64,000 nt of DNA from an uncultured bacterium (GTDB lineage: Bacteria > Desulfobacterota > Desulfobaccia > Desulfobaccales > 0-14-0-80-60-11), in the NCBI GenBank assembly GCA_937943575.1, contig CALEAV010000003.1, positions 1 through 64,000 on the forward strand. Reading direction: 5' to 3'. Made by a program: the position numbers and the translations under genes. The first letter of the stretch is position 1, and each line of letters starts with the position of its first letter. This document shows positions 4,440 to 23,457 of this stretch, piece after piece. Under the pieces are notes generated by a model. It was not told the DNA's origin. It was given only the letters and a program-made list of their open reading frames with translations, and made no database searches.

Positions 4440-5969
4440 TCAATCCTGCACAAATTCCCGGCCCTCTTTCAGGGCCAGCTCCGCCCGGGCGAGCTGGCGG
4501 CCCAGGTACATGGCATGGTTGATATCGGACAGGGCCAGGTCCCGGGCGAGCTGGTGCTGCAGGCTGACGGCGCTTTTGCCCCGGTAGGTGGCCAAGGTGG
4601 CATCCCCGTAGCGGTGCTCCACCAGGATCTCCTCCCCGTCCAGGGTGATGCGGAAGTAGCCCATGGGGTCCAGGCGCAGGCGCCAGCGGCGCTTGGCGGC
4701 CACCGCCAGGGCCCGGTCCAGCTGCCGGGGATCCAGGGAAAGGGAGTGGCTGAACACGGTGATGGCCCCGGGGGGCAGGCCCGCCCGCTCCGCCACCTCC
4801 CGCTGCAGGCGCATAAGCCCGTAGAAGTTCAGGAGCCAGGCGTCCAGTCCGTTGTGGGTGCGGAAGGTGGCGGTGAGGGTGAGGCGCCCCTCGAACTTCC
4901 GGGCATACACCGACACCAGGCAGGGCCGGCTCTCGGTCCCGGTGAGGTCCCGGCAGTTGTCCCACAGGGTGAAATAGGCCTTGCGGTCCTCGGGGTCGGC
5001 CTGCAGCCGGGCCGCCAGGGCCGCCGGCGCATCCACCCCGAAGTAGCGGCGCAGGCGGTGGCCGTAAGTGTAGCTGGCATCCGGGGGCAGCTCCCCCCTG
5101 AGGAAGTCCCGGTAATAGCCCTCCACCCGCGCCGGATCCAGGTTGAGCTCATGGAGCTGCTCCGGGGCGGCCTGGTGGGGCTTTTCCACCACCACCCGGA
5201 CGTTCTGCAGCTCCAGGCGCTCCCCTTTGGCCAGGGTGACCCGGCGGCCGAACCGCCTGAGGAGATGGACCAGCTCCAGCCAGGCCTCCAGGGGGGTGTC
5301 CTGCACCACCTGGTGGGCCCGGGGGTTGCTGGGGAAATGCTCGATCTGCACCTGGGGGAGGGGCGGCACGGCGGCAGGGCGGCTTAGCCCCTCCAGCAGC
5401 GGCGGCCGCCAGGCGGCCCAGGCGGCCCGCACCCGCTCCAAGGCCCCCTCCCCCTCGGGGGAGCCCAGGTCCACCAGCCGGGGCGGGCGCACGAAGTGTC
5501 CGGGAGTCACCAGGCCGTCGATGAGGCGGTGGGTGCCGATGATGCGCCAGGGGTGCCGGGGCCCGCCGTCCCCACTGAGATACTGGATGGCGGCTTCCGT
5601 CACCGGCTCCAGGCCGTAGCGGAAGAAATTCAGGAGCTCGGTGCGGGACCCGGAGAGATCCCGGCCGCACAGCCACAGCTCCTGAATCTGCGGGTTCCAC
5701 AGGAGGTTGCGCAGCATCTCCCGCAGGCCGTTGCCGTAGAGGGTGCCGATGACCGCCACCGGGCTGGTGGCCGGGTCCAGGTCCACCCCGGCCGTCTGGA
5801 GGCGGTCCCGGACATACTCCGGCCGGGACCACAGGGTCACCACCCCCAGGACTCCGGCAGGGTTGATCACCAGGAGCTTGTCGCCGAAATACAAGGGATC
5901 AAAACGGAGTGGACCCGTCATGGGATCTCTGGGCAGGGGGAATGGGCGCCTCTGACTCATTGATACCAT
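4440..5969 (-). CDS. Thymidylate synthase-like protein with N-terminal DUF4346/MtrA-like region
   Basis: C-terminal half carries ThyA-like pattern (RPCLVSVYARKFEGRLTLTATFRTHNGLDAWLLNFYGLMRLQREVAERAGLPPGAITVFSHS); N-terminal VIGTLYGNGLREMLRNLLWNP-LWLCGRDLSGSR. Start may be 5921. Confidence 0.6.
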   Translation of the reverse strand: MVSMSQRRPFPLPRDPMTGPLRFDPLYFGDKLLVINPAGVLGVVTLWSRPEYVRDRLQTAGVDLDPATSPVAVIGTLYGNGLREMLRNLLWNPQIQELWLCGRDLSGSRTELLNFFRYGLEPVTEAAIQYLSGDGGPRHPWRIIGTHRLIDGLVTPGHFVRPPRLVDLGSPEGEGALERVRAAWAAWRPPLLEGLSRPAAVPPLPQVQIEHFPSNPRAHQVVQDTPLEAWLELVHLLRRFGRRVTLAKGERLELQNVRVVVEKPHQAAPEQLHELNLDPARVEGYYRDFLRGELPPDASYTYGHRLRRYFGVDAPAALAARLQADPEDRKAYFTLWDNCRDLTGTESRPCLVSVYARKFEGRLTLTATFRTHNGLDAWLLNFYGLMRLQREVAERAGLPPGAITVFSHSLSLDPRQLDRALAVAAKRRWRLRLDPMGYFRITLDGEEILVEHRYGDATLATYRGKSAVSLQHQLARDLALSDINHAMYLGRQLARAELALKEGREFVQD

Positions 5970-7190: not shown

Positions 7191-9596
7191 TTATGGCACC
7201 CGTCCCTCCGCCGTCCGGGTCCGGGCGTCCGGGGCCAGTTCCGCCGCCAGCTCGGTGAGGAGGCGCTGCAGGACCTGGCCCTCGGTGGCGGAGATCCAGG
7301 CCAGCCGCAGGCGCCGGGGGTCCTCGCCCTTGGCCGCCAGCTTCTTCTGCAGGCGCTCCACCCGGGCCGCGGCCCTCAGGTTGCCCGTGAGGTAATGGCA
7401 ATCCCCCGGCGGGTGGCAGCCGGCCACCAGCACCCGGCCGGCGCCTTTGTTCAGCGCATAGGTGAGCAGCCTGGCCCCCACCCGGCCGCTGCACGGGGTG
7501 CGGAGGATGCGCACGTTGGGAGGGTAGGGGAGGCGGGCCACGCCGGCGAAGTCGGCCCCGGCGTAGGCGCACCAGTGGCAGCAGAAGGCCAGGATCTTGC
7601 CCTCCGGGGCCTCGGCCAGGGCGGCGTCGATCTGGGCCATCAGCATGGCGTCGGTGAAGCCCAGCAACTGGGCGGCCCCGGTGGGACAGGCCCCGGCACA
7701 CACCCCGCAGCCTTTGCAGGCCGGGGTCACCACCCGGGCCCGGGCCTCCTTCCCTTCCCCCTCCAGGGAGACGGCCTGGTACGGACACTCCTGGACGCAG
7801 CGCCCGCAGCCCACGCAGGCCTCCGGGTCCACCACCGCCACCAGGCCGGGCTGGGTGAGGGCCTCATGGGCCAGGAGGCCGATGACCTTGCCCGCCGCGG
7901 CGGTGGCCTGGGTGCAGGTCTCCGTCAGGTCTTTGGGCCCCTGGCAGGTGCCCGCCAGAAAGACCCCGTCCAGCACCGTCTCCAGGGGCTTGAGTTTCGG
8001 GTGGGCCTCCAGAAAGAAGCCGTCCGGCCCCTCCGGCAGCCTGAGGATCGGACGCAGATCCGAGCCGCCCCCGGGTCTAAGGCCCACCGCCAGCACCGCC
8101 AGGTCCACCCGGTCAGCGGTGGGCCGCCCGAGGATCTCGTTCTCGGCCCGAATCATCACCTTGCCGGAGGCCTCCGGCACCACCTCAGTCACTCGCCCCC
8201 GCAGGAAAATCACCCCCGCCTCCCGGGCCGCAGTGTAGAGGGCCTCCCCGGCCGGCTTGGGGGTGCGGATGTCCCGGTAATAGAGGCGGATGCGGGACTG
8301 GGGGAGCCGTCGCTTCACCTCCAGGGCCTGTTTCAGGGCGGTGGCGCAACAGATGCGGGAGCATTCCCGGAAGCCCTCCTCCTCCCGGGAGCCGACGCAC
8401 AGGAGAAAGGCGATGTCCCGGGGTTCGCCGCCCAGCCCCGGGGGCAGCAGCCGCCCTCCCGTGGGGCCGTCAGGGGCGAGCAGGCGCTCCAGGGCCGCGG
8501 TGGTGATGACCTGGGGGGCGCCGGGCCACGAAGACCCGGGATCACCCGACGGGTCGTAGGGCAGCGCGCCGGTGGCCACCACCACTGCGCCCACCGAGAG
8601 CTCCTCCTCCAGGGCGCCGGCCTCCAGCCGGATGGCCCCCTGCGGGCAGGCGGCCACACAGGCGCCGCAGCGGCTGCAGGCCTCCCGGTCCACCACGGCT
8701 TGGGGCGGGAAGAGGCGGGGGGAGGGGAGCCAGATGGCCCGCCGCTCGGTCATCCCAGCCTGGAAGTCATCGGGCAGGCTGACGGGGCAGACCTCCAGGC
8801 AGGCGCCGCAGCGGTCGCAGGCTTCATTGACCCAGGGCACCTGCCGCCGCAGGCGCACCCGGTAATTCCCCACATAGCCCCCGAACTCAATAAGTTCGGC
8901 CTCGGTGAGGACCCGGAGGCGGGGGTGGCGGCTCGCCGCGGCCATCAGGGGGCCCACCAGGGTGGCGGCGTGCCGGCGGTCCGGAAAGGTGCGGTGCCAG
9001 CGGGCCGCCAGACCGCCCAGCACCGGGCGGCGCTCCACCAGGACCACCTCGTGGCCGGCGTGGGCTATTTCCAGGGCCGCCTTGAGGCCGGCGGGGCCGC
9101 CTCCCACCACCAGGGCGCGGCGGGTCACCGGCACCCGGCGTTCCGTCAGCGGCCCTGCCAGCCGGGCTTTGGCCACCCCCATGAGGATGAGCTCCCACGC
9201 CTTGGCCTCGGCCTCCTCCGGCTCCAGGGCATGCACCCAGGTGCACTGCTCCCGGAGGTTCACCATCTCCACCAGATAGGGGTTGAGGCCCTGCTCCTTG
9301 AGGAGGCGCTGAAAGGTGAGCTCGTGCATGCGGGGGGAGCAGGCCGCCACCACCACCCGGGTGAGGTTGGCCGCAGCAATATCCTGGGCGATCTCCCGCT
9401 GCCCGGCCTCGGAGCAGGAATAGAGCTGGTGGCGGCAGACCACCACCTCGGGCAGCTCCTGGCCGCGGCGGGCCAGCTCCGCGGGCGAGATCACCCCGGC
9501 GATATTGAGGCCGCAATGGCAGATATACAGCCCGAGGCGCAGCTCCCCGGCGGGGCGGGGTGGGGGGGACGGGGGGCGGGGCGGCTCCGCACTCAT
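7191..9596 (-). CDS. hdrA: HdrA-MvhD fusion (FAD/FeS heterodisulfide reductase subunit A family with C-terminal MvhD/FlpD domain)
   Basis: YICHCGLNIAG, VVAACSPRMHE, LVVGGGPAGLKAAL, several CxxCxxCxxxCP motifs; C-terminal FCCHWCAYAGADFAG...RTPCSGRV...GCHPPGDCHY typical of MvhD. Confidence 0.9.
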   Translation of the reverse strand: MSAEPPRPPSPPPRPAGELRLGLYICHCGLNIAGVISPAELARRGQELPEVVVCRHQLYSCSEAGQREIAQDIAAANLTRVVVAACSPRMHELTFQRLLKEQGLNPYLVEMVNLREQCTWVHALEPEEAEAKAWELILMGVAKARLAGPLTERRVPVTRRALVVGGGPAGLKAALEIAHAGHEVVLVERRPVLGGLAARWHRTFPDRRHAATLVGPLMAAASRHPRLRVLTEAELIEFGGYVGNYRVRLRRQVPWVNEACDRCGACLEVCPVSLPDDFQAGMTERRAIWLPSPRLFPPQAVVDREACSRCGACVAACPQGAIRLEAGALEEELSVGAVVVATGALPYDPSGDPGSSWPGAPQVITTAALERLLAPDGPTGGRLLPPGLGGEPRDIAFLLCVGSREEEGFRECSRICCATALKQALEVKRRLPQSRIRLYYRDIRTPKPAGEALYTAAREAGVIFLRGRVTEVVPEASGKVMIRAENEILGRPTADRVDLAVLAVGLRPGGGSDLRPILRLPEGPDGFFLEAHPKLKPLETVLDGVFLAGTCQGPKDLTETCTQATAAAGKVIGLLAHEALTQPGLVAVVDPEACVGCGRCVQECPYQAVSLEGEGKEARARVVTPACKGCGVCAGACPTGAAQLLGFTDAMLMAQIDAALAEAPEGKILAFCCHWCAYAGADFAGVARLPYPPNVRILRTPCSGRVGARLLTYALNKGAGRVLVAGCHPPGDCHYLTGNLRAAARVERLQKKLAAKGEDPRRLRLAWISATEGQVLQRLLTELAAELAPDARTRTAEGRVP

Positions 9597-9599
9597 GGC

Positions 9600-10466
9600 T
9601 CAGCGCTTCGAGGTGCCCAACAGCCGGGCCACCGCCTGCTCCCAGGCGTGGGAGTAGCTCCCTTCCCGGGCCACCACCTCTTCCCGGATGAGGGTGACTG
9701 CGTCCTGGTCGCAGATGGCCTGGCAGATCCCGCAGAGACTGCAGGTCTCCCGGGCCATATACACCCGGGGCCCCTCCCGCACGATGATCTTCACGGGACA
9801 GAGGCTAACGCACTTCAGGCACTCCGGCGGGCATTTGCGGTCATCGATCTTTACCCGGCCCCGGAACTGGGGCGTGACGCACAGTGACCCGTGTTCGCAG
9901 ACGTCCAGACACTGCTGGCAGCGCAGGCACAGGTCGGGCTCCGGCCGGGGGCGGCCACTGTCCGCCTCGGGCACCAGGGCCTGGCGGGGGCAGGCCTGAA
10001 GGCAGCGGCGGCACTCCTTGGGACATTCCGTGAGGTCGTTGGGCACCAGCTTCCGTTGGGCCCGGCACCAATGCTCCTCGCCCTCCGGGAGCGGCGGGCA
10101 GGGCTCCGGGCACTTCTCCGGGTCCAGCTCCACCTTGGGGTGAAAGGGCGCCAGGGCCTGGTGGCTGGCCAGCACCGTCTTGGGCCGCCCTTTATAGGTG
10201 AGGGTGATGGCCCCCACCGGGCAGAAGTGGGCACAGACCTCGCAGAGCACGCAGAGCCAGGGGTCGATGGTGATCTCCAGGCTCTCCTCCCCGGGGAGAA
10301 GCCGCACCGCCTGCCGGGGGCAGACCACGGCGCAGACATCGCAGCGGATGCAGCGACCCTTGTCCAGTTCCAGGCGCACCTCTTCGGCAAAGAGACGGAG
10401 GGTGAGCGTCAGCGCAGTCTCGGTCTCCCGCAGGCGAAGAGGGGGCAGGCGATCCATCCGGCGCAT
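9600..10466 (-). CDS. Poly-ferredoxin (FwdF-like, about six 4Fe-4S sites)
   Basis: Repeated CxxCxxCxxxCP motifs across 288 aa. Confidence 0.8.
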   Translation of the reverse strand: MRRMDRLPPLRLRETETALTLTLRLFAEEVRLELDKGRCIRCDVCAVVCPRQAVRLLPGEESLEITIDPWLCVLCEVCAHFCPVGAITLTYKGRPKTVLASHQALAPFHPKVELDPEKCPEPCPPLPEGEEHWCRAQRKLVPNDLTECPKECRRCLQACPRQALVPEADSGRPRPEPDLCLRCQQCLDVCEHGSLCVTPQFRGRVKIDDRKCPPECLKCVSLCPVKIIVREGPRVYMARETCSLCGICQAICDQDAVTLIREEVVAREGSYSHAWEQAVARLLGTSKR

Positions 10467-10484: not shown

Positions 10485-10907
10485 TCAGGAATTCTCACCC
10501 TGCAGCTTCAGATGGAATTCCCGGGCCTTGAGCTTCAGCTGCTTGCGGCGCAGATTGGTCTTGACGTCGGGAAACTCCGCCAGGAGGAAATCAAACTTGT
10601 CACAGGCCGCCAGGTCCGGACAGTGGGAGCACTGGGGCAGGCCCCGTTCGATGGCGCAGCACCGGATGGGGCAGGTCTCCATGCCCCGGCTGCCCTTGCA
10701 GCCCGGACAGTCGGTGTGGCTGAGGAACCACTCCAGGCCTTTGCGGAATTCGTTGAAGTCAAAGCCTTCATTTGCCGGGAAGCAGTGCACCCACCAGTTG
10801 GCCCGGAAACGGAGGAGGTATTCCTGCATCTGGCGCACGGTCTTCAGGAATTCCGGGTGCCCCAGCTGGCAGTCGTCACACAGGCCGCAATAGCTTTCCC
10901 GCACCAT
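10485..10907 (-). CDS. DUF3795 cysteine-rich protein
   Basis: YCGLCDDCQLG start and CPGCKGSRG...CPIRCCAIERGLPQCSHCPDLAAC pattern. Confidence 0.75.
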   Translation of the reverse strand: MVRESYCGLCDDCQLGHPEFLKTVRQMQEYLLRFRANWWVHCFPANEGFDFNEFRKGLEWFLSHTDCPGCKGSRGMETCPIRCCAIERGLPQCSHCPDLAACDKFDFLLAEFPDVKTNLRRKQLKLKAREFHLKLQGENS

Positions 10908-10958: not shown

Positions 10959-13900
10959 TCAGGCCTCCAGGGCGGCAATGATCTGGGCCAGGATCTCCGC
11001 CTCCGTGGCCCGGCTGAGGTGGATGGCCCGGGCCGGGCAGGCGGTGGCGCACAGGCCGCAGCCCCGGCAGGCCTCCAGCACCACCTGGGGGCGGCCGGCC
11101 GGACCCAGGCGCAGGGCGTGATATGGGCAGATGCCCATGCAGGTGAGGCACCGGCGGCAGTGGGCCGCCTCCACCCGGGCATAGAGCTCGCCGCTCACGA
11201 TCGCCGGCCGGGAGAGCAGCGCCGCCGCCTTCAGGGCCGCTGCCCCGGCCTGCATCAGGGATTCGCCCAGACTCCGGGGGGAATGGGCCAGGCCGCACAG
11301 GAACACCCCCTCCACCACCGTTTCCACCGGCCTCAGCTTGGCATGCGCCTCCTGCAGGAAACCCTCGGGGCTGAGGGGCACCCCCAAAAGCCGGGCCGCC
11401 TCGGCGCCGCCGGGATGGGGCTCCACCCCGGCACTCAGGACCAAAAGGTCCGCCTTGAGGCGGATCTCCCGCTTAAGAGGCTCATTCCATACCCGAAGGT
11501 CCAGGGGGCGTTTCCGGGGCAGGGCCACCTCCGGGGGGCGGCCGGGGTCATACGGGAGAAACCGCACCCCCAGCTCCCGGGCCTCCTGATAATACACCTC
11601 CCGGCGGCCATAGGCCCTCAGGTCCCGGTAGAGCACGGTGATCTCCACCGCAGGCCGCCGTCTTTTCAGCAGGATAGCATTTTTCAGGGCATGGGAGCAA
11701 CACAGGCGGCTGCACCAGGGGCGGTCCGGCTCCCGGGAGCCGACGCACTGCAGCATCACCAGGTGATAGAGGCGGTCCAGGTGCGGGTCCTCGGCGGCCA
11801 GGCGCTCCTCCAGCTCCAGCTGGGTGAGCACCCGGGGGTCCTGGCCGTAGCCGAAGCGGCCTGCCGGCCGGAACTCCCGGCCGCCGGTGGCCAAGAGCAC
11901 CACGCCGTGCTCCACCATAAGCTCCCGCCCGCCCCGGCGCTGCAGGCGGCTCCGGAAACGCCCCACCTGCCCGGAGACGTGCACCACCTCGGTGGCGGTG
12001 AGGATCTCCACGTTGGGGTGGCCATAGGCCGCAGCCTCCAGATCCTGAAGGAGCCGCCGGGGGTCGGTGCCCTCCAGGGTGTAATTGAGGCGCCGGGCCA
12101 TGCCCCCCAGCTGCGCTTCCCGCTCCACCACGTAGGTATGGAAGCCCTGGTCGGCCAGAGCCAGGGCGGCGGTGAGCCCCGCCGGGCCGCCCCCGATCAC
12201 CAGGGCCCGGGGCATCATGGGAAAGGTGAGGACCTCGATGGGCGGCACCACCCAGGCCCGCCGCACCGCCATGGCCACCAGATCCCGGGCCGTGGCCAGC
12301 GCCGCCTCCGGATCGTGCTGGTGCACCCAGGCGCATTGCTCCCGCAGATTGGCAAAGCACAGGAAACCCGGGTTGAGGCCGGCCTGCGCCAACACCTCCC
12401 GGAAGACGGCTTCATGGGTGCGGGGGGTGCAGGCCGCCACCACCACCCGGGTGAGCCCCTCGTCCCGGATGGCCCGGGCCAGCTGCCGGGTGGCGTCGGC
12501 GGAACAGGCAAAGAGGGGGTCAGCCACCCACACCACCCCGGGCAGCTTCTGCACCTGCACCGCCAGCCGGGCCAGATCAATGGTTTTGGCGATGTTGGTG
12601 CCGCAATGGCAGAGATAGACCCCGATGCGGGGCGGGCCGCAGGCCTCCGGCGCCGGGGGCGGCAGGACGGCCACGGGGAGGCTCTGCCGGGGCGCCAGGG
12701 CCAGCCGGGTGGCCGCCGCCTGGGCCGCGGCCGCCGCGGAGGTGAGGGAGTCGGTGATGTCCCCGGGCTCCCGGGCGGCCCCCGCCACCCAGAGGCCGGG
12801 CCGGGGAGTCTCCCAGGGCTCCACCCCGGTGGGGGGGACATATTGCCCCGGCCCCAGGGGGAGACCCAGGCGTCGGGCCAGTTCCGTGAAGCCCGAAGCC
12901 GGCCGCTGCCCCACCGCCAGGACCGCCAGGTCCACCTCCAGCTCCCCCCGGCGGCCGCGGGCGTCGGTGAAGAGCACCGCCACTAGGCCTCCGGGCCGCG
13001 CCTCCACCGCCGCCGCCCGGGAGCGGATGACCCGGATCCCCCGGGCCAGGGCCCGCTCGAGATAGCCTTCCTGGCCTTTGCCGGGGGCTCTCAGGTCCAT
13101 GGCGAAGATATAGGCCTCCAACCCGGGGGGGCCCGACTCCGCCGCCAGCACCGCCTCCTTGAGGCTGGCCAGGCAGCAGTGGCTGGAGCAGAACGGCGCC
13201 CCGTGCTCCGGCTCCCGGGAACCGATGCACTGCAGAAAGGCCAGCCGCCGGACGGGAGCCCTGTCTCCGGGACGCACCAGCCGGCCCTCCGTGGGGCCGG
13301 TGGCACTGAGGAGGCGCTCAAACATGAGGCTGGTGAGGACCCCGGGGAGGGCGGCGCCGGGGAAGTCTTCCACCGGGGCCGGGGAGAGGCCGCTGGTGAG
13401 GAGCACTGCCCCCACGTGCCGCACCAGGGTCTCGGGCTCCTGGGAGAGGTCCACGGCCCCGGCGGGGCAGACCTCCACGCAGGCTCGGCAGGGCCGCCCC
13501 TGGAAGTGGCGGCAGACCTCCGGGTCCACCACCGCCGCCTGAGGCACGGCCTGGGGAAAGGGCACCCGGATGGCCTTGGCCCGGCTCAATCCCAGATTAT
13601 AAGGGTCCGGCAGGCTGCGGGGGCAGACCCGGGTGCACTCCCCGCAGGCGGAGCAGCGCTCCAGGCTTACATACCGGGGCTGCCGGCTCAGGGTGGCCAC
13701 AAAATCCCCCGCCTCCCCCGCCAGGGTGGTGAGGGTGGTCAGGGTGAGGATTTCCACCCGGGGATGGCGGGCCGCCTCCAGCATCCGGGGCGAGAGGATG
13801 CACATGGCGCAGTCGTTGGTGGGGAAGGTCTTGTCCAGTTGCGCCATCAGCCCGCCCACCGACGGCCCCTGCTCCGCCAGGGTGACGGGGAACCCCAGCT

Positions 13901-13997
13901 CCGCCAGGTCCAGGGCGGCCGTCAGCCCGGCGATGCCGCCCCCCACCACCAGGATGCGGGGGCTCGCCACCCGGGGCAGGGGACTTACCGGCGCCAT
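10959..13997 (-). CDS. Tandem double HdrA (two FAD/FeS HdrA-type modules in one 1012-aa polypeptide)
   Basis: Two Rossmann motifs (ILVVGGGIAGLTAALDLAE; ALVIGGGPAGLTAALALAD), two CIGSRE/CVGSRE motifs, internal VYLCHCGTNIAKTID, several 4Fe-4S motifs. Confidence 0.9.
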   Translation of the reverse strand: MAPVSPLPRVASPRILVVGGGIAGLTAALDLAELGFPVTLAEQGPSVGGLMAQLDKTFPTNDCAMCILSPRMLEAARHPRVEILTLTTLTTLAGEAGDFVATLSRQPRYVSLERCSACGECTRVCPRSLPDPYNLGLSRAKAIRVPFPQAVPQAAVVDPEVCRHFQGRPCRACVEVCPAGAVDLSQEPETLVRHVGAVLLTSGLSPAPVEDFPGAALPGVLTSLMFERLLSATGPTEGRLVRPGDRAPVRRLAFLQCIGSREPEHGAPFCSSHCCLASLKEAVLAAESGPPGLEAYIFAMDLRAPGKGQEGYLERALARGIRVIRSRAAAVEARPGGLVAVLFTDARGRRGELEVDLAVLAVGQRPASGFTELARRLGLPLGPGQYVPPTGVEPWETPRPGLWVAGAAREPGDITDSLTSAAAAAQAAATRLALAPRQSLPVAVLPPPAPEACGPPRIGVYLCHCGTNIAKTIDLARLAVQVQKLPGVVWVADPLFACSADATRQLARAIRDEGLTRVVVAACTPRTHEAVFREVLAQAGLNPGFLCFANLREQCAWVHQHDPEAALATARDLVAMAVRRAWVVPPIEVLTFPMMPRALVIGGGPAGLTAALALADQGFHTYVVEREAQLGGMARRLNYTLEGTDPRRLLQDLEAAAYGHPNVEILTATEVVHVSGQVGRFRSRLQRRGGRELMVEHGVVLLATGGREFRPAGRFGYGQDPRVLTQLELEERLAAEDPHLDRLYHLVMLQCVGSREPDRPWCSRLCCSHALKNAILLKRRRPAVEITVLYRDLRAYGRREVYYQEARELGVRFLPYDPGRPPEVALPRKRPLDLRVWNEPLKREIRLKADLLVLSAGVEPHPGGAEAARLLGVPLSPEGFLQEAHAKLRPVETVVEGVFLCGLAHSPRSLGESLMQAGAAALKAAALLSRPAIVSGELYARVEAAHCRRCLTCMGICPYHALRLGPAGRPQVVLEACRGCGLCATACPARAIHLSRATEAEILAQIIAALEA

Positions 13998-14018: not shown

Positions 14019-14507
14019 CTATTCCCCCTCATGGCCGGTCTCCATCTCCTTCAGGGCGCGGGCCAGCGCCTGCCGGGGGGACATATCCCCTGCACCGGGG
14101 GCGGTCAGCCGCTCCAGGGTGCGCCGCCTCAGGGCGGCCAGCAGGCTCTCGGCCTCCAGGAGCGCCTGGGCCACCTCCGGGGGGACATACCCCTCTTCCA
14201 CCGCCAGCCGCCTCAGGGCCTGGATGATATCCAGAAACCGCACCTCCTGGGGGCAGAAATGGGAGCAGCGGGCGCAGCGGGCGCACTGCCAGATAAGCGG
14301 CGAACCCAGGACCTCCCCCCTCAGGCCCAGGAGCACCTGCCGGAGGACAAGGCCGGGGCTGAATTCCGGGTGAACGGCGCTCACCGGGCACACGGCAGTG
14401 CAGGTGCCGCAGCCCACGCACCGCCAGAGATTCCCGCAGCCCGGTTCCCGGGACACTGTCTCCGGGAACCAGGGATCCGACTCTTCCAGGCTCAGGGGCA
14501 TATCCAT
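14019..14507 (-). CDS. hdrC: HdrC-like 4Fe-4S dicluster protein
   Basis: CVGCGTCTAVCPVSAVHPEFSP...CARCARCSHFCPQEVRFLDIIQALR. Confidence 0.8.
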   Translation of the reverse strand: MDMPLSLEESDPWFPETVSREPGCGNLWRCVGCGTCTAVCPVSAVHPEFSPGLVLRQVLLGLRGEVLGSPLIWQCARCARCSHFCPQEVRFLDIIQALRRLAVEEGYVPPEVAQALLEAESLLAALRRRTLERLTAPGAGDMSPRQALARALKEMETGHEGE

Positions 14508-14551: not shown

Positions 14552-15004
14552 TCAGCGCAGGGTGATGGCCTCAGCGGGACAGTGCTCGGCGCATTTGCTG
14601 CACTTCTCCGCCGCCTGCAGGAGGCGCACGCACAGCTCCTGGTTCACCACCCGGACCAGGCCGTTCACCACCCGGAAGATCACCCGGTCGCCGGGCCGGG
14701 GGCCCCGGCCGGCCCGGGCCTCTGGCACCTGGGCCAGATGGTGCTCGCACATGGCCACACAGATGCCGCAGCCGATACAGCGCTCCGGGTCAATGGCCAT
14801 GCCCCGGGCGGCGGCCGGCGCCGCGGCCAGGAGCTCCTCCAGGGCCTCGATGAAGCCGGCATACTCCGGCTCATGCAGCACCGGACAGTCGGCGGGCGCA
14901 AGGTCCCGGCTGAGGAGCAGCCCGGCAAAGTCGGCGCAGGTCATGCCGCACTGGCCGCAGTCCGTGCGAGGCAGAAACTCCAGGAGCTCCTCCGCCGTGA
15001 GCAT
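14552..15004 (-). CDS. 4Fe-4S protein with N-terminal FeS (PF04060-like) domain and dicluster ferredoxin
   Basis: TDCGQCGMTCADFAGLLL; CIGCGICVAMCEHH; CSKCAEHCPAEAITL. Confidence 0.78.
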   Translation of the reverse strand: MLTAEELLEFLPRTDCGQCGMTCADFAGLLLSRDLAPADCPVLHEPEYAGFIEALEELLAAAPAAARGMAIDPERCIGCGICVAMCEHHLAQVPEARAGRGPRPGDRVIFRVVNGLVRVVNQELCVRLLQAAEKCSKCAEHCPAEAITLR

Positions 15005-15007
15005 CTC

Positions 15008-16354
15008 TCAGACCTCGGCCCAGGGGCCGCCCAGCTGCTCCACGGCCCAGAGGGTCTCCGGCCGGAGGCTGAAGGAGCGGCTCAGCTCCCCAAACAGGGG
15101 CGTCTCGGAGGCCTGGGGGTTGCGGAACAGCGTCTGCCGGGGGACCTCCGGGTCCACCAGGACATAATCCCGGATGACCGCCCGGCCGGCCTTGAGGAGG
15201 GTGCGGCAACGGCCCAGGGCCTCAAGCCCGGCCCCCGGTGGCAGGTCATAGAGGGCGATATCGGCCCGGGCCCCCGGGGTGAGGCGCCCCCGGCCGGGCA
15301 GGCCCAGGAGCTCCGCCGGCAGCAGGCGGGTGGCGTAGGCCCAGTCAAACAAAGTCCAGCGCCGGGGCCCGGCTGCGGCCTCCAGTTCCGGCGGCCGTTG
15401 CTCCGGGTTTCCCAGCCAGGCCAGAAAGCGGGGGAAATCCTCCGCCAGCCGGGAGAGCGGCCCCGAGGTGGAAAAGGCCAGCCGCCGGGGGAAGTCCAGG
15501 GCCAGCTTCACCGCCCGGGCCACCTCCGCCGGACCCGGCCGGGCGGTGAGACAGCGGGGAGAGGAACCTCCCACCTCCACCCACACCGGCAATCCGGCCA
15601 GCCTCGAATGGGTCAGACCCAGATCGCCGGTGGCCCCGGCGGCAAGGAGCCGGGCGGCCTCCCGGGCCTCCGCCTCGCCCGTAAGACCCCGGCTTAAGCC
15701 GGAGAGATGAAAATGGGCCGGCTCCGGGAGATGCCAGGAGAGCAGCTCAGGGGAGGCCTCCAGGAAGAGGCGGCACCCCAGCCCCTCCGCCAGCCGCGCC
15801 AGAATCTCCAGGGCCTGCGGCCCCGGCAGGGTGCGGTGCGCATAGTAGTCCTGGCGGTAGTGCACAAAGGGCTCCGCCACACTGAAACCCAAGGTGCGGG
15901 TGCGGGCCTGGAGGAGCCGGAGGGTCTCCACCACTTCGGGAAGACGGGCCGGGTCCTTCAGGGCCAGGTCCAGGTCCCTTAAGTTCACCTCCAGGGAAAC
16001 GGAGGCGTCCACCACTTTCAGGGCCGCCAGCTGCCGGTGCGCGGCCCCGGCGAAGGCCATGGCGGAACCGCACACATGGATGTGGGTATATCCCAGCCGG
16101 GCGTAGAATTCCCCCACCTCCTCCAGGGGCGGGGACTCCTCCCGCAGTGGCAGGAGATGCCCGCCGAAGCCCGCCAGGGGAGCCCTGAGTTCCACCCCGG
16201 CGGCCAGCACCGCCCGGCCCTTGGCCTCCAACACCTCATCCACCTCGGGCAGGGGCGGCACCAGCCGCTCCCCCTCCAGGTAGAGGTCGCCCTCCTCGCC
16301 GTTGAGGCCCAGGGCAGGGTCAAAGATCCGGCCGCCGGCGATCCTGAGCCGCAT
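15008..16354 (-). CDS. Formylmethanofuran dehydrogenase subunit A-like amidohydrolase homolog, apparently lacking metal ligands
   Basis: FwdA-like layout (MRLRIAGGRIFDP, GYTHIHVCGSAMAFAGAAHRQL, GARADIALYDL) but HxH replaced (VELRAPLAG). Confidence 0.78.
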   Translation of the reverse strand: MRLRIAGGRIFDPALGLNGEEGDLYLEGERLVPPLPEVDEVLEAKGRAVLAAGVELRAPLAGFGGHLLPLREESPPLEEVGEFYARLGYTHIHVCGSAMAFAGAAHRQLAALKVVDASVSLEVNLRDLDLALKDPARLPEVVETLRLLQARTRTLGFSVAEPFVHYRQDYYAHRTLPGPQALEILARLAEGLGCRLFLEASPELLSWHLPEPAHFHLSGLSRGLTGEAEAREAARLLAAGATGDLGLTHSRLAGLPVWVEVGGSSPRCLTARPGPAEVARAVKLALDFPRRLAFSTSGPLSRLAEDFPRFLAWLGNPEQRPPELEAAAGPRRWTLFDWAYATRLLPAELLGLPGRGRLTPGARADIALYDLPPGAGLEALGRCRTLLKAGRAVIRDYVLVDPEVPRQTLFRNPQASETPLFGELSRSFSLRPETLWAVEQLGGPWAEV

Positions 16355-16369
16355 GACACCCTGCCTCCC

Positions 16370-16903
16370 TCAGCGCGGCTCCCCCTCCACGTAGGCCTTC
16401 AGGATGACCTCCTCCTCGTAGGGGACGTTCTGATGCTGTTCCCGCACGGTCACCGGCTTGGAGGCCAGGATTTCCAGGAGATGGAGGCCGGAGATGACCC
16501 GGCCGAAGACCGCATAGCCGAAATTCACCGGCTCCGGACCCTTGTGGTCCAGTTTCGGGTTGTCCGCCAGATTGACGAAGAACTGGGCCGCGGCGCTGTT
16601 GATGGGGTAGGCCCGGGCCATGGCGATGGTGCCCCGCTTGTTCCGGAGGCCGTTGTCCGCCTCATTTTTGATGGGCGGGTGCGTCGGCTGCCGGTAGACC
16701 ATGCCGGGCTCATAGCCCCCGGTCTGGACCACGAAATTCTGCACCGCCCGGTGGAAGATGAGGCCGTCGTAAAACCCCTCCCGCACATAGGTGAGGAAAT
16801 TGTCCACCGTGACGGGGGCCTTGTCGGGCCACAGCTCCAGTTTGATGGTGCCCATGGTGGTCTCCAGCACCACAATGGGGTAGTTCGGTTTATCCTCAGG
16901 CAT
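16370..16903 (-). CDS. ppiB: Peptidyl-prolyl cis-trans isomerase (cyclophilin type)
   Basis: FHRAVQNFVVQTGG, INSAAAQFFVN, YAVFGRVISG. Confidence 0.93.
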   Translation of the reverse strand: MPEDKPNYPIVVLETTMGTIKLELWPDKAPVTVDNFLTYVREGFYDGLIFHRAVQNFVVQTGGYEPGMVYRQPTHPPIKNEADNGLRNKRGTIAMARAYPINSAAAQFFVNLADNPKLDHKGPEPVNFGYAVFGRVISGLHLLEILASKPVTVREQHQNVPYEEEVILKAYVEGEPR

Positions 16904-16913
16904 GCAGCACCTC

Positions 16914-18188
16914 TCAGGCGGAGATTTCCAGCAACCTCGTCAGCACCTGGTGGGCGGCCGGGGCCGGCGCCGGCAGGACGGGCCGGAGGAAGAGGGGGAG
17001 GCCGTCCTGGCGGCAGGCCACCTCCTCCACCTCAATGCCTTCCAGAGCCGCCGGCAGGCCCACCGCCGCCTGGGCCGCGGTGCGGTCCTCCCAGGGCCCC
17101 ACCGCCACCACCGGCACCTGGCGGCGGCTAAGCTCCCGGCGGGTCCCCTCCGGGAGCAGCCAGAAGAGATCGGCCCCGGTGACCAGGACGGCGTCCACCT
17201 CGCCCCAGTCCACCGGCTCCCAGTGGCACCGCGGGGGATCTCCCTCCCTGAAGTCCGGGGCCCCGGGGCTTCCCAGGCGGGTGAGGAGGAGGTGGTAGAG
17301 CCCGGCGCTGTTGAAGTCGCTGGCCAAGGGGAAAAGGAAGTAGCGCCGCTCGGGCCTCAGGTCCCGGACCAGGGCCGCCAGGGCGGCAAAGCGCGCCCTT
17401 GCCCCCTCACCGTAGGCCAGGCCCCGGCCGGCGAAGATCACCCCCACCTCCCCCTGGCGCAGGAAATCCGCCAGCCGGCTTGCCCCTTTGACGGCCTGGG
17501 CGGCGCCTCTCCCGGCCACCAGGTCGTGCACCGCCCGGATGAGCTCCAGGTCCCGCCCCGGAGCCGTCTTGACGAAGACCTGGCAGAAGCGGGCCAGCTC
17601 GGTGCGGTGCAGGTCCACCGCCGCCAGCCGCCGGTCCTCGGCCCCCCGCTCGGTGAAGCGCCCCCGGGCAAAGAAGGCATAGCGGGTCAGGTGCCGGGGG
17701 CAGGCATGCAGGGGGTTGGCCCCCCAGTAGATGACCGTGTCGGCCTCATCCCGGAGGAAGTCCAGGGGCGCATGATAGATCTCTTCGGTGAGGAGGGCCT
17801 GGTAGTAGGGGGCCATGAGGTGCAGGTCGGCGGGCTCCAGGCGGGCCCGGAAGCGCCGGGCCAGCGCCATGGCCGCCTCCTGGGCCCGGCAGCCTGAGGC
17901 GGTGAGGCCGAAGACCACCGGCCGCCGGGCTTGGGCCAAAAGCTCCACCGCCCGCTTTAGGGCTTCCCCCTCGCCCACCTCCCGGCGCCGGCCCCGGTGC
18001 CGGATGAAGGGCGCCGTCAGCCGGCGCCGGGGCTCCCCGGGGTGGAATTTTTTGGTGCCCAGGAATTTGGCGGCGCCCCAGGCGCAGACATTGTGGACTG
18101 TCACCCCCTGCTCTGCCTCCACCAGGTCAATGTCATCGCACAGGCAGGCACAGCCGGGGCAGATGTGGGATTCCCAGGGTCCGGGCAT
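16914..18188 (-). CDS. Formylmethanofuran dehydrogenase subunit B-like molybdopterin-family protein
   Basis: CPGCACLCDDIDL...NVCAWGAAKF FeS motif; VIYWGANPLHACPRHLTRYAFFARG FwdB hallmark. Start ATG 18188 after AGAGG; ORF track opens at TTG 18206. Confidence 0.85.
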   Translation of the reverse strand: MPGPWESHICPGCACLCDDIDLVEAEQGVTVHNVCAWGAAKFLGTKKFHPGEPRRRLTAPFIRHRGRRREVGEGEALKRAVELLAQARRPVVFGLTASGCRAQEAAMALARRFRARLEPADLHLMAPYYQALLTEEIYHAPLDFLRDEADTVIYWGANPLHACPRHLTRYAFFARGRFTERGAEDRRLAAVDLHRTELARFCQVFVKTAPGRDLELIRAVHDLVAGRGAAQAVKGASRLADFLRQGEVGVIFAGRGLAYGEGARARFAALAALVRDLRPERRYFLFPLASDFNSAGLYHLLLTRLGSPGAPDFREGDPPRCHWEPVDWGEVDAVLVTGADLFWLLPEGTRRELSRRQVPVVAVGPWEDRTAAQAAVGLPAALEGIEVEEVACRQDGLPLFLRPVLPAPAPAAHQVLTRLLEISA

Positions 18189-18223
18189 GTGACCTCTGCA
18201 CCCCAACGGGTCTAAACATCACC

Positions 18224-19558: not shown

Positions 19559-19646
19559 GACAGTCCCATCTGCACATGGGCGGAGAGTGCGACCTGGGCC
19601 GGGTCCGGTTCGGCCTGCGACAGTCCCATCTGCACATGGGCGGAGA
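19559..19646. repeat. Two identical 28-bp direct repeats with 60-bp period
   Basis: GACAGTCCCATCTGCACATGGGCGGAGA at 19559-19586 and 19619-19646; each contains CCCAT-N6-ATGGG. Confidence 0.9.
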
Positions 19647-19653
19647 ACTCAGG

Positions 19654-22600
19654 ATGTCAGCAGTTCCTGCCAGTGCCGGCTCCAGGGAAAAACTGGCGGA
19701 CAGGGTGGCGCTTCCTTCCCTGTGGCCGCAGGTCCTGGAGTCCGCCGGCATCTGCCTGTGGCTGGTGGCCTTGGAGGAGGCCGGCCCCCGGACGCTGTTC
19801 CTCACTTCGGCGGCCAGCGGTCTGCTGGGACGGCCCCGGGAGAGCCTGCTCCTGGATCCGGGCTATGCCTGGGAGGCGGTGCACCCCGAGGACCGGGGCC
19901 GGGTGCGCCAGGCATGGGAACAGCTCCTGCAGGGCCGCCCCGTCTCCGGGGAGGTGCGCCTCCTCACCCCCCGCCGGGAGATCCGCTGGGTCAGGGTGGA
20001 GGCCATCCCTCTCTTCGGGGAGACCCCCGAGAGCCGCTTGGTGGCCGTCTGGGCCATCGATCTCACTCCCCTCCGACAGGCCCTCAACCAAGGCCGGGAG
20101 GCCGAAGCCCGCCTTCGGGCAGTCTTCTCCCTCCCCTCCTTGGGGGTGGCCGTCCTCTCCCCCCACGGGGACGTGGTGGAGGCCAATCGGGCCTTTACCG
20201 ACATGCTGGACCCCGGCGGGGTGCTCCTGGAGACCTGCCGTCAGCTGTTTGAGGCCCTCTGTCATTCCTCCGAAGATTTTCAACAGGTGGAAAAGCGGTA
20301 TCTCCGGGCCGACCACCAGACGGTCTCTGTCCGGGTGAGCCTCAGCCTGGTGCGGGATGAGGCCGGGGCCCCGGTGGGGGGTCTGGCCCTGGTGGAAAAC
20401 CTCACCGGCCAGCGCCGCACCGAGGAGGCCCTGCGCCAGAGCCGGGAGCGCTTCCGCCTCCTCTATGACCGGGCGCCGCTGGCCTACCAGACCCTGGATG
20501 CCGACGGCCGCCTCCTGGATGTCAACCAGACCTGGCTGGAGATGACCGGTTACTCCCGGGAGGAGGTCCTGGACCGGTGGTTCGGCGCCTTTCTCACCCC
20601 CGAGTCGGCGCCCCTCTTTGAACAGGTCTTTTTTGCCCTGAAACAGGGCAGCGAGATCACGGAGGTGGAGCTGACCCTGGCCTGCCGGGACGGCCGGCAC
20701 CTGCCGGTGGCCCTTGCCGGCAAACGGCTGACGGATGAAGCCGGGCGATTCCAGCAGGCCCTGTTGTTGGCGGCGGACATCTCCCGGCGCCAGGAGGCGG
20801 AGGAGGCCCTGAGGCGCTCGGAGCTGCGCTACCGCACCCTGGTGGAGCAGATCCCGGCCATCACCTACACCGCCCGGGCCGACGACTTCACCGCCAAGCT
20901 CTTTGTCAGTCCCCAGGCCCAGACCATCCTGGGCTTCTCCTGGTCCGACTATGAGCAGGACCCGGATCTGTGGCGCCGGCGGCTGCACCCGGAGGACCGG
21001 GAATGGGTGCTGGCCGACATGGCCCGGTGCCAGGCGGAGGGCACTCCCTTTGCGGCGGAATACCGCATGCTCACCGCCGACAACCGGGTGGTCTGGCTCC
21101 GGGACGAAGCCCGCCTCATCACCGATGTGGATGGCCGCCCCCTGGTGCTCCAGGGGGTCATTCTGGACATCACCGCCCGGCGGCAGGCGGAGAGCGAGCG
21201 GGAGACCTACCATCAGCTCCTGACCGCCACCTTCAATGCCTTCCAGGACCTCATCGTGGTGGTGGACCGGGATCTCAAGGTGGTGATGAGCAACTGGCGG
21301 CCCGGTTTTCATGGTCCGGAGCCTCTCCCCCAGGCGTTGTGCCTCCAGGTGTTTGCCCAGCGCACCGAGCCCTGCACCCCCTGTCTGGTGCAAGAGGTCT
21401 TTTCCCATGGGCGCATGCAGGTCCGGGAAGTCATTGTCGCCGATGGCCGTCACCTGGAGATGCGGGTCTTCCCGGTCACGGATGAGCATGGGCAGGTGAA
21501 CCTGGTGGTGAAGCAGGTGGTGGACATCACCGCCCGGCGCCGGTCGGAGGAGGCCCTCAGGCGCAGCGAAGAGAATTACCGCCTCCTGGTGGGCAGCATC
21601 CCCGGAGTGGTCTTCCGGGGCTATGCCGACTGGCGGATTGAGGTCTTCGATGACCAGGTGGAGAAGCTCACCGGCTACCCCCGGGAGGACTTCACCTCCG
21701 GCCGCCTGAAATGGTGCGACCTGATCCTGCCCGAGGATCTGCCCGAGGCCCGGCGCCTCTTTCTGGAGGCCCTGAAGGGGGACCGCTCCTATGTGCGCTC
21801 CTACCGCATCCGCCACCGGGAGGGGCACCCGGTGTGGGTCCAGGCCCGGGGGCAGATCATCCTGGATGCCGACGGGCGCCTCGACCACGTCATCGGCGTC
21901 TGTTTCGATATCAGCGCCCAAAAGAAGATTGAAGAGCAGCTGGCCACCGAAAAGGAACGCCTGGCGGTGACCCTGCGCTCCATCGGCGACGGGGTGATCG
22001 CCACCGACACCCGGGGGGGCATCGTCCTGATGAACGATGTGGCGGAACGCCTCACCGGCTGGACCCAGGCCGGGGCCCAGGGACTGCCGGCCACCCGGGT
22101 GTTCTGTCTGAATGGGGAGAAGGATGGCCACCCGGTGGACCCGGTCCATGAGGTGATCCGCACCGGCCAGCCCTTGAGGCTGCCCAACCACGCCCTGTTG
22201 GTGCCCAGGGACGGGGAGGCCCGGAGCATCTCCGTCACCGCCGCACCCATAGTGGACCGGGGGGGCCGGGTGGACGGGGTGGTCCTGGTCTTTCAGGACA
22301 TCACCGTGCGCAAGCAACTGGAGGCGGAATTCCGCAAGATTGAAAAGCTCTCCTCCCTGAGCATCCTGGCGGGGGGGATTGCCCACGATTTCAACAACAT
22401 CCTCACCGGCATCCTGGGGAATCTCTCTCTGGCCATGATCGCCCACCAGGATCCGGACCTGCTTCTCCCCCGGCTGGCGGAAGCGGAGCGGGCCGCCTTG
22501 CGGGCCCGGGACCTGGTGCAGCAGCTCCTCACCTTTGCCAAGGGTGAGGCGCCGGTGAAGGAGGTGGCCTCGCTGCCGGACCTTATCCGGGAGAGCGCCA

Positions 22601-23457
22601 ACTTTACCACCCGGGGCTCCCCCGCCCGGGTGGTCTTCTATTTGGCCCCGGACCTGAAACCGGCGGAGGTGGACCCGGCCCAGTTCAGCCAGGTCATTCA
22701 GAACCTTATCCTCAATGCGGTGCAGGCCATGCCCCAGGGGGGCACCATCTGGGTGACGGCGGACAACATCCACCTGGGGGCGGACAGCGGCCTGCCCCTG
22801 CCGGAAGGGCCCTACATCCGGATTGCCGTCAAGGATCAGGGGGTCGGCATCCCCCAAAACTATCTCTCCAAGATCTTCGACCCCTATTTCTCCACCAAAC
22901 CCAAGGGGAGCGGCCTGGGGCTGGCCACCGCTTATTCCATCATCAAGAATCACGGCGGCTACATGACGGTGTCCTCCCAGGTCGGACAGGGGACGGTGTT
23001 CCACCTCTATCTGCCCGCCTCGGCCAAGGAAGCCCCGCCCCCGCGCCTCCGTTCCCCGGCGGAGCCCATCCCGGGTCAGGGCCGGGTGCTGGTCATGGAC
23101 GACGACGAGATGGTGCGCAGCGTGGCCGGCAAGATTCTCACCCACCTGGGCTATGAAGCCGACTTCGCCGGGGACGGCGAGGAAGCCCTCAGCCTCTATG
23201 CCGCCGCCCAGGAAGCGGGCCGCCCCTTTGATGTGGTGATCATGGACCTCACCATCCCCGGAGGGCTGGGCGGCAAGGAAGCCATCCGCCGGCTGCTGGC
23301 CCTGGATCCCCAGGCCCGGGCCATCGTCTCCAGCGGCTACGCCGATGACCCCATCCTGACCAATTATCAGGAGTACGGCTTTAAAGGGGTCATCCGCAAA
23401 CCTTACCGCATCCACACCTTCAGTCAGGAACTGGCCCGGGTCATCAGCCTCTCCTGA
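19654..23457 (+). CDS. Multi-PAS hybrid sensor histidine kinase with C-terminal receiver
   Basis: Several PAS/PAC repeats; GGIAHDFNNILTGILGNLSLA H-box; GVGIPQNYLSKIFDPYFSTKPKGSGLGLA; REC VLVMDDDEMVR...VIMDLTIPGGLGG. Start at 19654 preferred; ORF opens at 19576. Confidence 0.92.
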   Translation: MSAVPASAGSREKLADRVALPSLWPQVLESAGICLWLVALEEAGPRTLFLTSAASGLLGRPRESLLLDPGYAWEAVHPEDRGRVRQAWEQLLQGRPVSGEVRLLTPRREIRWVRVEAIPLFGETPESRLVAVWAIDLTPLRQALNQGREAEARLRAVFSLPSLGVAVLSPHGDVVEANRAFTDMLDPGGVLLETCRQLFEALCHSSEDFQQVEKRYLRADHQTVSVRVSLSLVRDEAGAPVGGLALVENLTGQRRTEEALRQSRERFRLLYDRAPLAYQTLDADGRLLDVNQTWLEMTGYSREEVLDRWFGAFLTPESAPLFEQVFFALKQGSEITEVELTLACRDGRHLPVALAGKRLTDEAGRFQQALLLAADISRRQEAEEALRRSELRYRTLVEQIPAITYTARADDFTAKLFVSPQAQTILGFSWSDYEQDPDLWRRRLHPEDREWVLADMARCQAEGTPFAAEYRMLTADNRVVWLRDEARLITDVDGRPLVLQGVILDITARRQAESERETYHQLLTATFNAFQDLIVVVDRDLKVVMSNWRPGFHGPEPLPQALCLQVFAQRTEPCTPCLVQEVFSHGRMQVREVIVADGRHLEMRVFPVTDEHGQVNLVVKQVVDITARRRSEEALRRSEENYRLLVGSIPGVVFRGYADWRIEVFDDQVEKLTGYPREDFTSGRLKWCDLILPEDLPEARRLFLEALKGDRSYVRSYRIRHREGHPVWVQARGQIILDADGRLDHVIGVCFDISAQKKIEEQLATEKERLAVTLRSIGDGVIATDTRGGIVLMNDVAERLTGWTQAGAQGLPATRVFCLNGEKDGHPVDPVHEVIRTGQPLRLPNHALLVPRDGEARSISVTAAPIVDRGGRVDGVVLVFQDITVRKQLEAEFRKIEKLSSLSILAGGIAHDFNNILTGILGNLSLAMIAHQDPDLLLPRLAEAERAALRARDLVQQLLTFAKGEAPVKEVASLPDLIRESANFTTRGSPARVVFYLAPDLKPAEVDPAQFSQVIQNLILNAVQAMPQGGTIWVTADNIHLGADSGLPLPEGPYIRIAVKDQGVGIPQNYLSKIFDPYFSTKPKGSGLGLATAYSIIKNHGGYMTVSSQVGQGTVFHLYLPASAKEAPPPRLRSPAEPIPGQGRVLVMDDDEMVRSVAGKILTHLGYEADFAGDGEEALSLYAAAQEAGRPFDVVIMDLTIPGGLGGKEAIRRLLALDPQARAIVSSGYADDPILTNYQEYGFKGVIRKPYRIHTFSQELARVISLS

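Follow-up and report, generated by a model that had tools for sequence, protein, structure and literature searches.

Loss of the ancestral metal site predicted in a conserved FwdA-like protein encoded beside Hdr proteins in the order Desulfobaccales

FwdA of the tungsten formylmethanofuran dehydrogenase (TIGR03121; PDB models 5t5i, 8rja, and 7bkb) carries a binuclear metal site ligated by four His, one Asp, and one carboxylysine (PMC11656701). In the methylotroph FhcA/FhcB formyltransferase/hydrolase complex (PDB model 6s6y), FhcA retains its metal site and acts together with FhcC and FhcD; FhcB, a FwdB homologue without the W/Mo ligand, is described as a non-catalytic scaffold (PMC10100899). 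In the methanogen Hdr-Fwd/Fmd supercomplex (7bkb), HdrA, HdrC, an FlpD domain, and a FwdF-like polyferredoxin are found together with FwdA and FwdB. HdrA type II clusters of ANME and Methanosarcinales archaea encode a Cys-lacking subunit of molybdopterin fold (MopB), proposed to be structural; its clade lies nearer to FdhG/FhcB and partners with FdhB, and the available text of PMC12054007 does not mention a dead FwdA. The locus described here, in a 64,000-nucleotide window (the whole stretch of DNA analyzed) from an uncultured Desulfobaccales bacterium, shares features with each of these systems and departs from all of them.

The gene in question (positions 15008 to 16354, minus strand) begins with ATG, has no internal stops, and encodes 448 amino acids. 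Among curated families it matches FwdA best (TIGR03121, E = 9.6e-18), at 63.7 bits compared to a curated cut-off of 392.75 bits, and the top matches among PDB sequences were FhcA (6s6y, 1.8e-14) and FwdA (5t5i, 4e-10; also 9sfi). An AlphaFold2 model built from 28 homologues (pLDDT of 90, pTM of 0.91) returned only FhcA and FwdA chains at ranks 1 to 8 in Foldseek (TM of 0.76 to 0.82 by query length), with other amidohydrolases far behind. Judged by this model, the protein has the FwdA/FhcA fold. A preliminary description made from the sequence had proposed an intact frame with the fold-level landmarks of FwdA, and the frame, the model confidence, and the eight leading structural matches all bear this out. 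No second FwdA gene scored in a family search of the source genome. As in the tungsten enzyme, the protein has the overall fold, the N- and C-terminal sequence motifs, and a neighboring fwdB; unlike it, the protein is about 100 residues shorter, with a reduced β-5/β-6 region, has all six ligands replaced, and occurs without FwdC or a methanofuran pathway.

Ligand columns were read against the canonical bacterial FwdA of family f34, and none of the six binuclear-site ligands is retained. The HxH motif of β-1 is replaced by Arg57-Ala-Pro59 (codons 57 to 59, 16178 to 16186) and the Asp of β-8 by Ser297 (15464 to 15466); these two columns agree between MAFFT, hhalign, and HMM alignments to PDB chains. 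Ser158 (15881 to 15883) takes the place of the carboxylysine in both MAFFT and hhalign. The His of β-5 and β-6 correspond to Glu199 (15758 to 15760) and Gly219 (15698 to 15700), respectively, by MAFFT through intermediates of family f40 only, a route taken because HMM searches against PDB left this stretch unaligned; hhalign was unreliable there. The replacements read from the letters in the preliminary description therefore hold up in alignment: AGVELRAPLAG aligns to GGVEIHSHVAG with both His gone, LEASPELL occupies the place of MHTSPEL in f40, and FSTSGPL aligns to LSTDHPN. The carboxylysine and the β-6 His, which that description had not read, are lost as well. On these alignments, the ancestral metal site is lost from the FwdA-like protein.

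The partner protein has been altered in a similar way. The FwdB-like protein (16914 to 18206, minus strand; 430 amino acids) aligns to M. wolfei FwdB along its whole length (E = 3e-54), but Leu130 stands where catalytic FwdB has its Cys or Sec ligand of W or Mo, and the following His is Met131. The N-terminal [4Fe-4S] cysteines (Cys16, Cys19, Cys23, and Cys41) are kept. Across the order, all 16 Desulfobaccales FwdB-like sequences that cover the site have Leu, Phe, or Trp instead of the tungsten Cys, and the four iron-sulfur Cys are present in each sequence that covers them. In one relative (G012; locus L028, 11593 to 12909), the FwdB frame is split by an in-frame TAG, which may reflect either an assembly error or decay.

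Both genes lie in a nine-gene operon on the minus strand with intergenic gaps of 3 to 51 bp. The FwdB gene is followed by a cyclophilin-type peptidyl-prolyl isomerase (16370 to 16903), found within the operon only in some genera, the FwdA-like gene, and a 150-amino-acid iron-sulfur protein (14552 to 15004) with an N-terminal FeS domain (PF04060) and two [4Fe-4S] ferredoxin motifs, whose gene adjoins FwdAB-like genes in every clade except the canonical f34. Residues 2 to 58 of this protein resemble the FeS domain of the ACDS gamma subunit CdhE (NF003195, E = 4.9e-7). Next come a soluble HdrC-like protein with two CxxCxxCxxxC motifs (14019 to 14507), a 1,012-amino-acid HdrA-HdrA tandem fusion (10959 to 13997), a DUF3795 protein with 12 Cys (10485 to 10907), a 288-amino-acid FwdF-like polyferredoxin (9600 to 10466; NF042909, E = 6.7e-24), and an 801-amino-acid HdrA2-like protein with a C-terminal FlpD/MvhD domain (7191 to 9596). 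The operon thus places HdrA, HdrC, FlpD, and FwdF-like genes together with fwdA and fwdB, the gene content of a Hdr-Fwd system as known here from genes; unlike the methanogen supercomplex, it is bacterial, lacks HdrB (the heterodisulfide site), FwdC, FwdD, and FdhAB, and has its catalytic head apparently silenced. No obvious electron-donor enzyme is encoded among the operon genes. Downstream lies a gene for a 509-amino-acid protein (4440 to 5969, minus strand) in which a methanogen-type thymidylate synthase region (TIGR03283) is joined to a pterin-binding DUF4346/MtrA-like domain. A 1,293-amino-acid hybrid sensor kinase (19576 to 23457, plus strand), in which several PAS domains are combined with a receiver, is divergent from the operon and lies beside it in two relatives of the same genus too.

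Family searches, on which the genome-wide absences rest, found no FwdC, Ftr, or Mch in the source genome or its relatives; all three were present only in f34. Neither Ftr nor Mch was detected in any ligand-poor genome tested, and no FwdC scored above cut-off outside f34. Weak FwdC matches in ligand-poor genomes were disregarded: they covered only a short part of the model and fell mostly inside frames of 600 to 1,550 amino acids that probably encode glutamate synthase. With these genes absent, no methanofuran substrate is expected. The source genome has ACS, so a Wood-Ljungdahl route that does not use methanofuran is probable in this organism. In families f40, f74, and f3, the module of FwdB and the 150-residue iron-sulfur protein adjoins the archaeal-type CODH genes CdhA/CdhB (L077, 9723 to 14848; L079; L083; L091, 12358 to 15628). 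FwdA is included in the module in f40 and f3, and in f3 an ACS (CdhC) gene lies between module and CODH. This arrangement hints at a possible redox link to CODH.

Comparison between families indicates how the two active sites may have been lost. In f34, the FwdA and FwdB sites are both kept alongside FwdD, FwdC, Mch, and Ftr. The f40 homologue of FwdA keeps the full set of H, H, K, H, H, and D in five of six genomes, with Gln for the β-6 His in the remaining one, beside a FwdB without its tungsten Cys. Elsewhere the remnants are scattered: in f3 either the HxH or just its first His survives, f71 has the second His of that motif alone, and f13 has nothing but the β-6 His. FwdA-like proteins of Desulfobaccales have essentially none, the stray matches being a His in L035 (position 57) and, at the β-8 position, an Asp in L033. 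From the residues retained, the series from f34 (both sites kept) through f40 (FwdA intact, FwdB dead) to Desulfobaccales (both dead) is one of stepwise loss. The preliminary description had regarded homologues with an HxH in the same type of operon as evidence against its reading; such homologues do occur in the related operon of f40, but not in Desulfobaccales. Because f40 keeps six ligands beside a dead FwdB, loss marks lineages rather than the operon type. The FwdA tree, midpoint rooted with long branches and poorly resolved in places, fits a position of f40 next to f34 and leaves the number of losses unproven.

We consider it probable, with moderate confidence, that neither the FwdA-like nor the FwdB-like subunit works as a catalyst any longer and that both persist as scaffold and electron relay at the core of a soluble Hdr-type iron-sulfur flavoprotein complex, itself predicted from its genes and derived from the methanogen Hdr-Fwd supercomplex. 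The retained parts carry electrons and hold subunits together (the FeS cysteines of FwdB and the iron-sulfur motifs of the FwdF-like and HdrA proteins); the lost ones perform chemistry (the W ligand, the binuclear site, the FwdC channel subunit, and the methanofuran enzymes, with no FwdD in the operon). We propose that the FwdF-like protein conducts electrons between the HdrA flavins and the FwdB cluster and that they would then continue from FwdB to the 150-residue iron-sulfur protein in place of a tungsten center, with FwdA bracing both. A headless Hdr-Fwd complex of this kind would be the simplest reading, with its donor and acceptor likewise conjectural. In its favor are the loss of six of six FwdA ligands from an intact fold, the loss of the tungsten Cys from a FwdB that keeps its FeS cysteines, the absence of FwdC, Ftr, and Mch, the tight operon shared across the order, the occurrence of the FwdA-like gene in 18 of 22 good genomes, and low dN/dS. 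FhcB (PMC10100899) and the Cys-lacking MopB protein from HdrA clusters of methane archaea (PMC12054007) are published precedents. Against it, a conserved HxH (below) may hint at a role for the FwdA pocket, the conserved polar residues His91, His93, Ser118, and Glu161 seem to exceed the needs of pure scaffolding, and the operon has neither HdrB nor an obvious electron donor.

An alternative hypothesis, which we regard as unlikely, is that the amidohydrolase barrel has moved its metal site, so that a new mononuclear site formed by His91 and His93 on β-2, perhaps with Glu161 at the end of β-4, now catalyzes a different reaction inside the Hdr electron-transfer complex. In the homologue alignment, this second HxH (codons 91 to 93, H-I-H, 16076 to 16084) is invariant in all 26 ligand-poor homologues, which come from four clades and are otherwise 26 to 79% identical to the query; the corresponding residues are T-x-F in canonical FwdA and H-x-N in f40, where the old site is retained. 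Strand periodicity suggests that both His point into the barrel, on either side of the Val or Ile at position 92. In D-aminoacylases, a Cys on β-2 is a metal ligand. Glu161 is kept by 25 of the 26 ligand-poor homologues, but it also co-occurs with the old site in f40, and the two His could be merely structural. Because the β-2 HxH is conserved in all ligand-poor homologues, we do not term the protein metal-free: of the preliminary proposal of a "metal-free pseudo-amidohydrolase," the loss of the ancestral site stands at all six positions, while absence of metal is unproven given the conserved HxH and the β-4 Glu.

The same conserved polar residues could instead belong to a ligand-binding or sensing subunit, whose barrel pocket would take up a small molecule (e.g., formate or a C1/acetyl intermediate), perform no catalysis on it, and thereby gate the flow of electrons. 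The FwdAB-FeS module beside archaeal-type CODH genes in some other families, with ACS as well in f3, would suit such a role, but no CODH gene lies near the operon in the Desulfobaccales loci examined, and we think this explanation improbable.

It is very improbable that the gene is a relic in decay that merely travels with the operon. The lost catalytic residues and the stop inside the FwdB frame of G012 might be read that way, but conservation largely contradicts it. The FwdA-like gene occurs, with a frame free of internal stops, in 18 of the 22 good genomes of the order, and gene order is kept across Desulfobaccales apart from the cyclophilin, with variants carried by f71 and f40, although several neighborhoods in this comparison are cut by contig ends. 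A profile search of genome contigs with a 15-sequence alignment recovered 18 loci, nearly all labeled Desulfobacca, Syntrophobacterales, or Deltaproteobacteria; a search of plasmids for homologues gave no match. Pairwise dN/dS, a check that the preliminary description had called for, was below 0.4 in all 14 comparisons by both NG86 and YN00, well below 1 and similar to the FwdB and HdrA genes of the same operon. Between the window gene and its nearest relative it was 0.31 (NG86) or 0.07 (YN00, with dS near saturation). The gene is therefore under purifying selection. The earlier view that selection retains the scaffold and not the hydrolase chemistry agrees with the kept fold, the lost ancestral site, these ratios, and the missing methanofuran pathway, though its metal-free component is not established. 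An Fhc-like formyl hydrolase still using a furan coenzyme is hardly credible: although FhcA is the closest solved fold and FhcB is likewise a dead FwdB (PMC10100899), it is contradicted by the loss of all metal ligands and by the absence of FhcD/Ftr, FhcC, and Mch from the genome. Unlike in Fhc, subunits A and B are both dead and C and D are missing.

A dead FwdB is already known from FhcB, and it is the death of both halves beside Hdr proteins that appears to be new. In the literature searched, we came across no account of catalytically dead FwdA-like and FwdB-like proteins that share an operon with Hdr proteins and are conserved with them across an order, and nothing relevant on pseudo-amidohydrolases. 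With the series from f34 through f40 to Desulfobaccales, one can test directly how an enzyme turns into a scaffold or relay. Annotating such genes as formylmethanofuran dehydrogenase would falsely predict a methanofuran route of CO2 in these bacteria. Our analysis instead suggests that in Desulfobaccales, an order of anaerobic bacteria, an enzyme core has been put to new use, as a scaffold and a wire for electrons.
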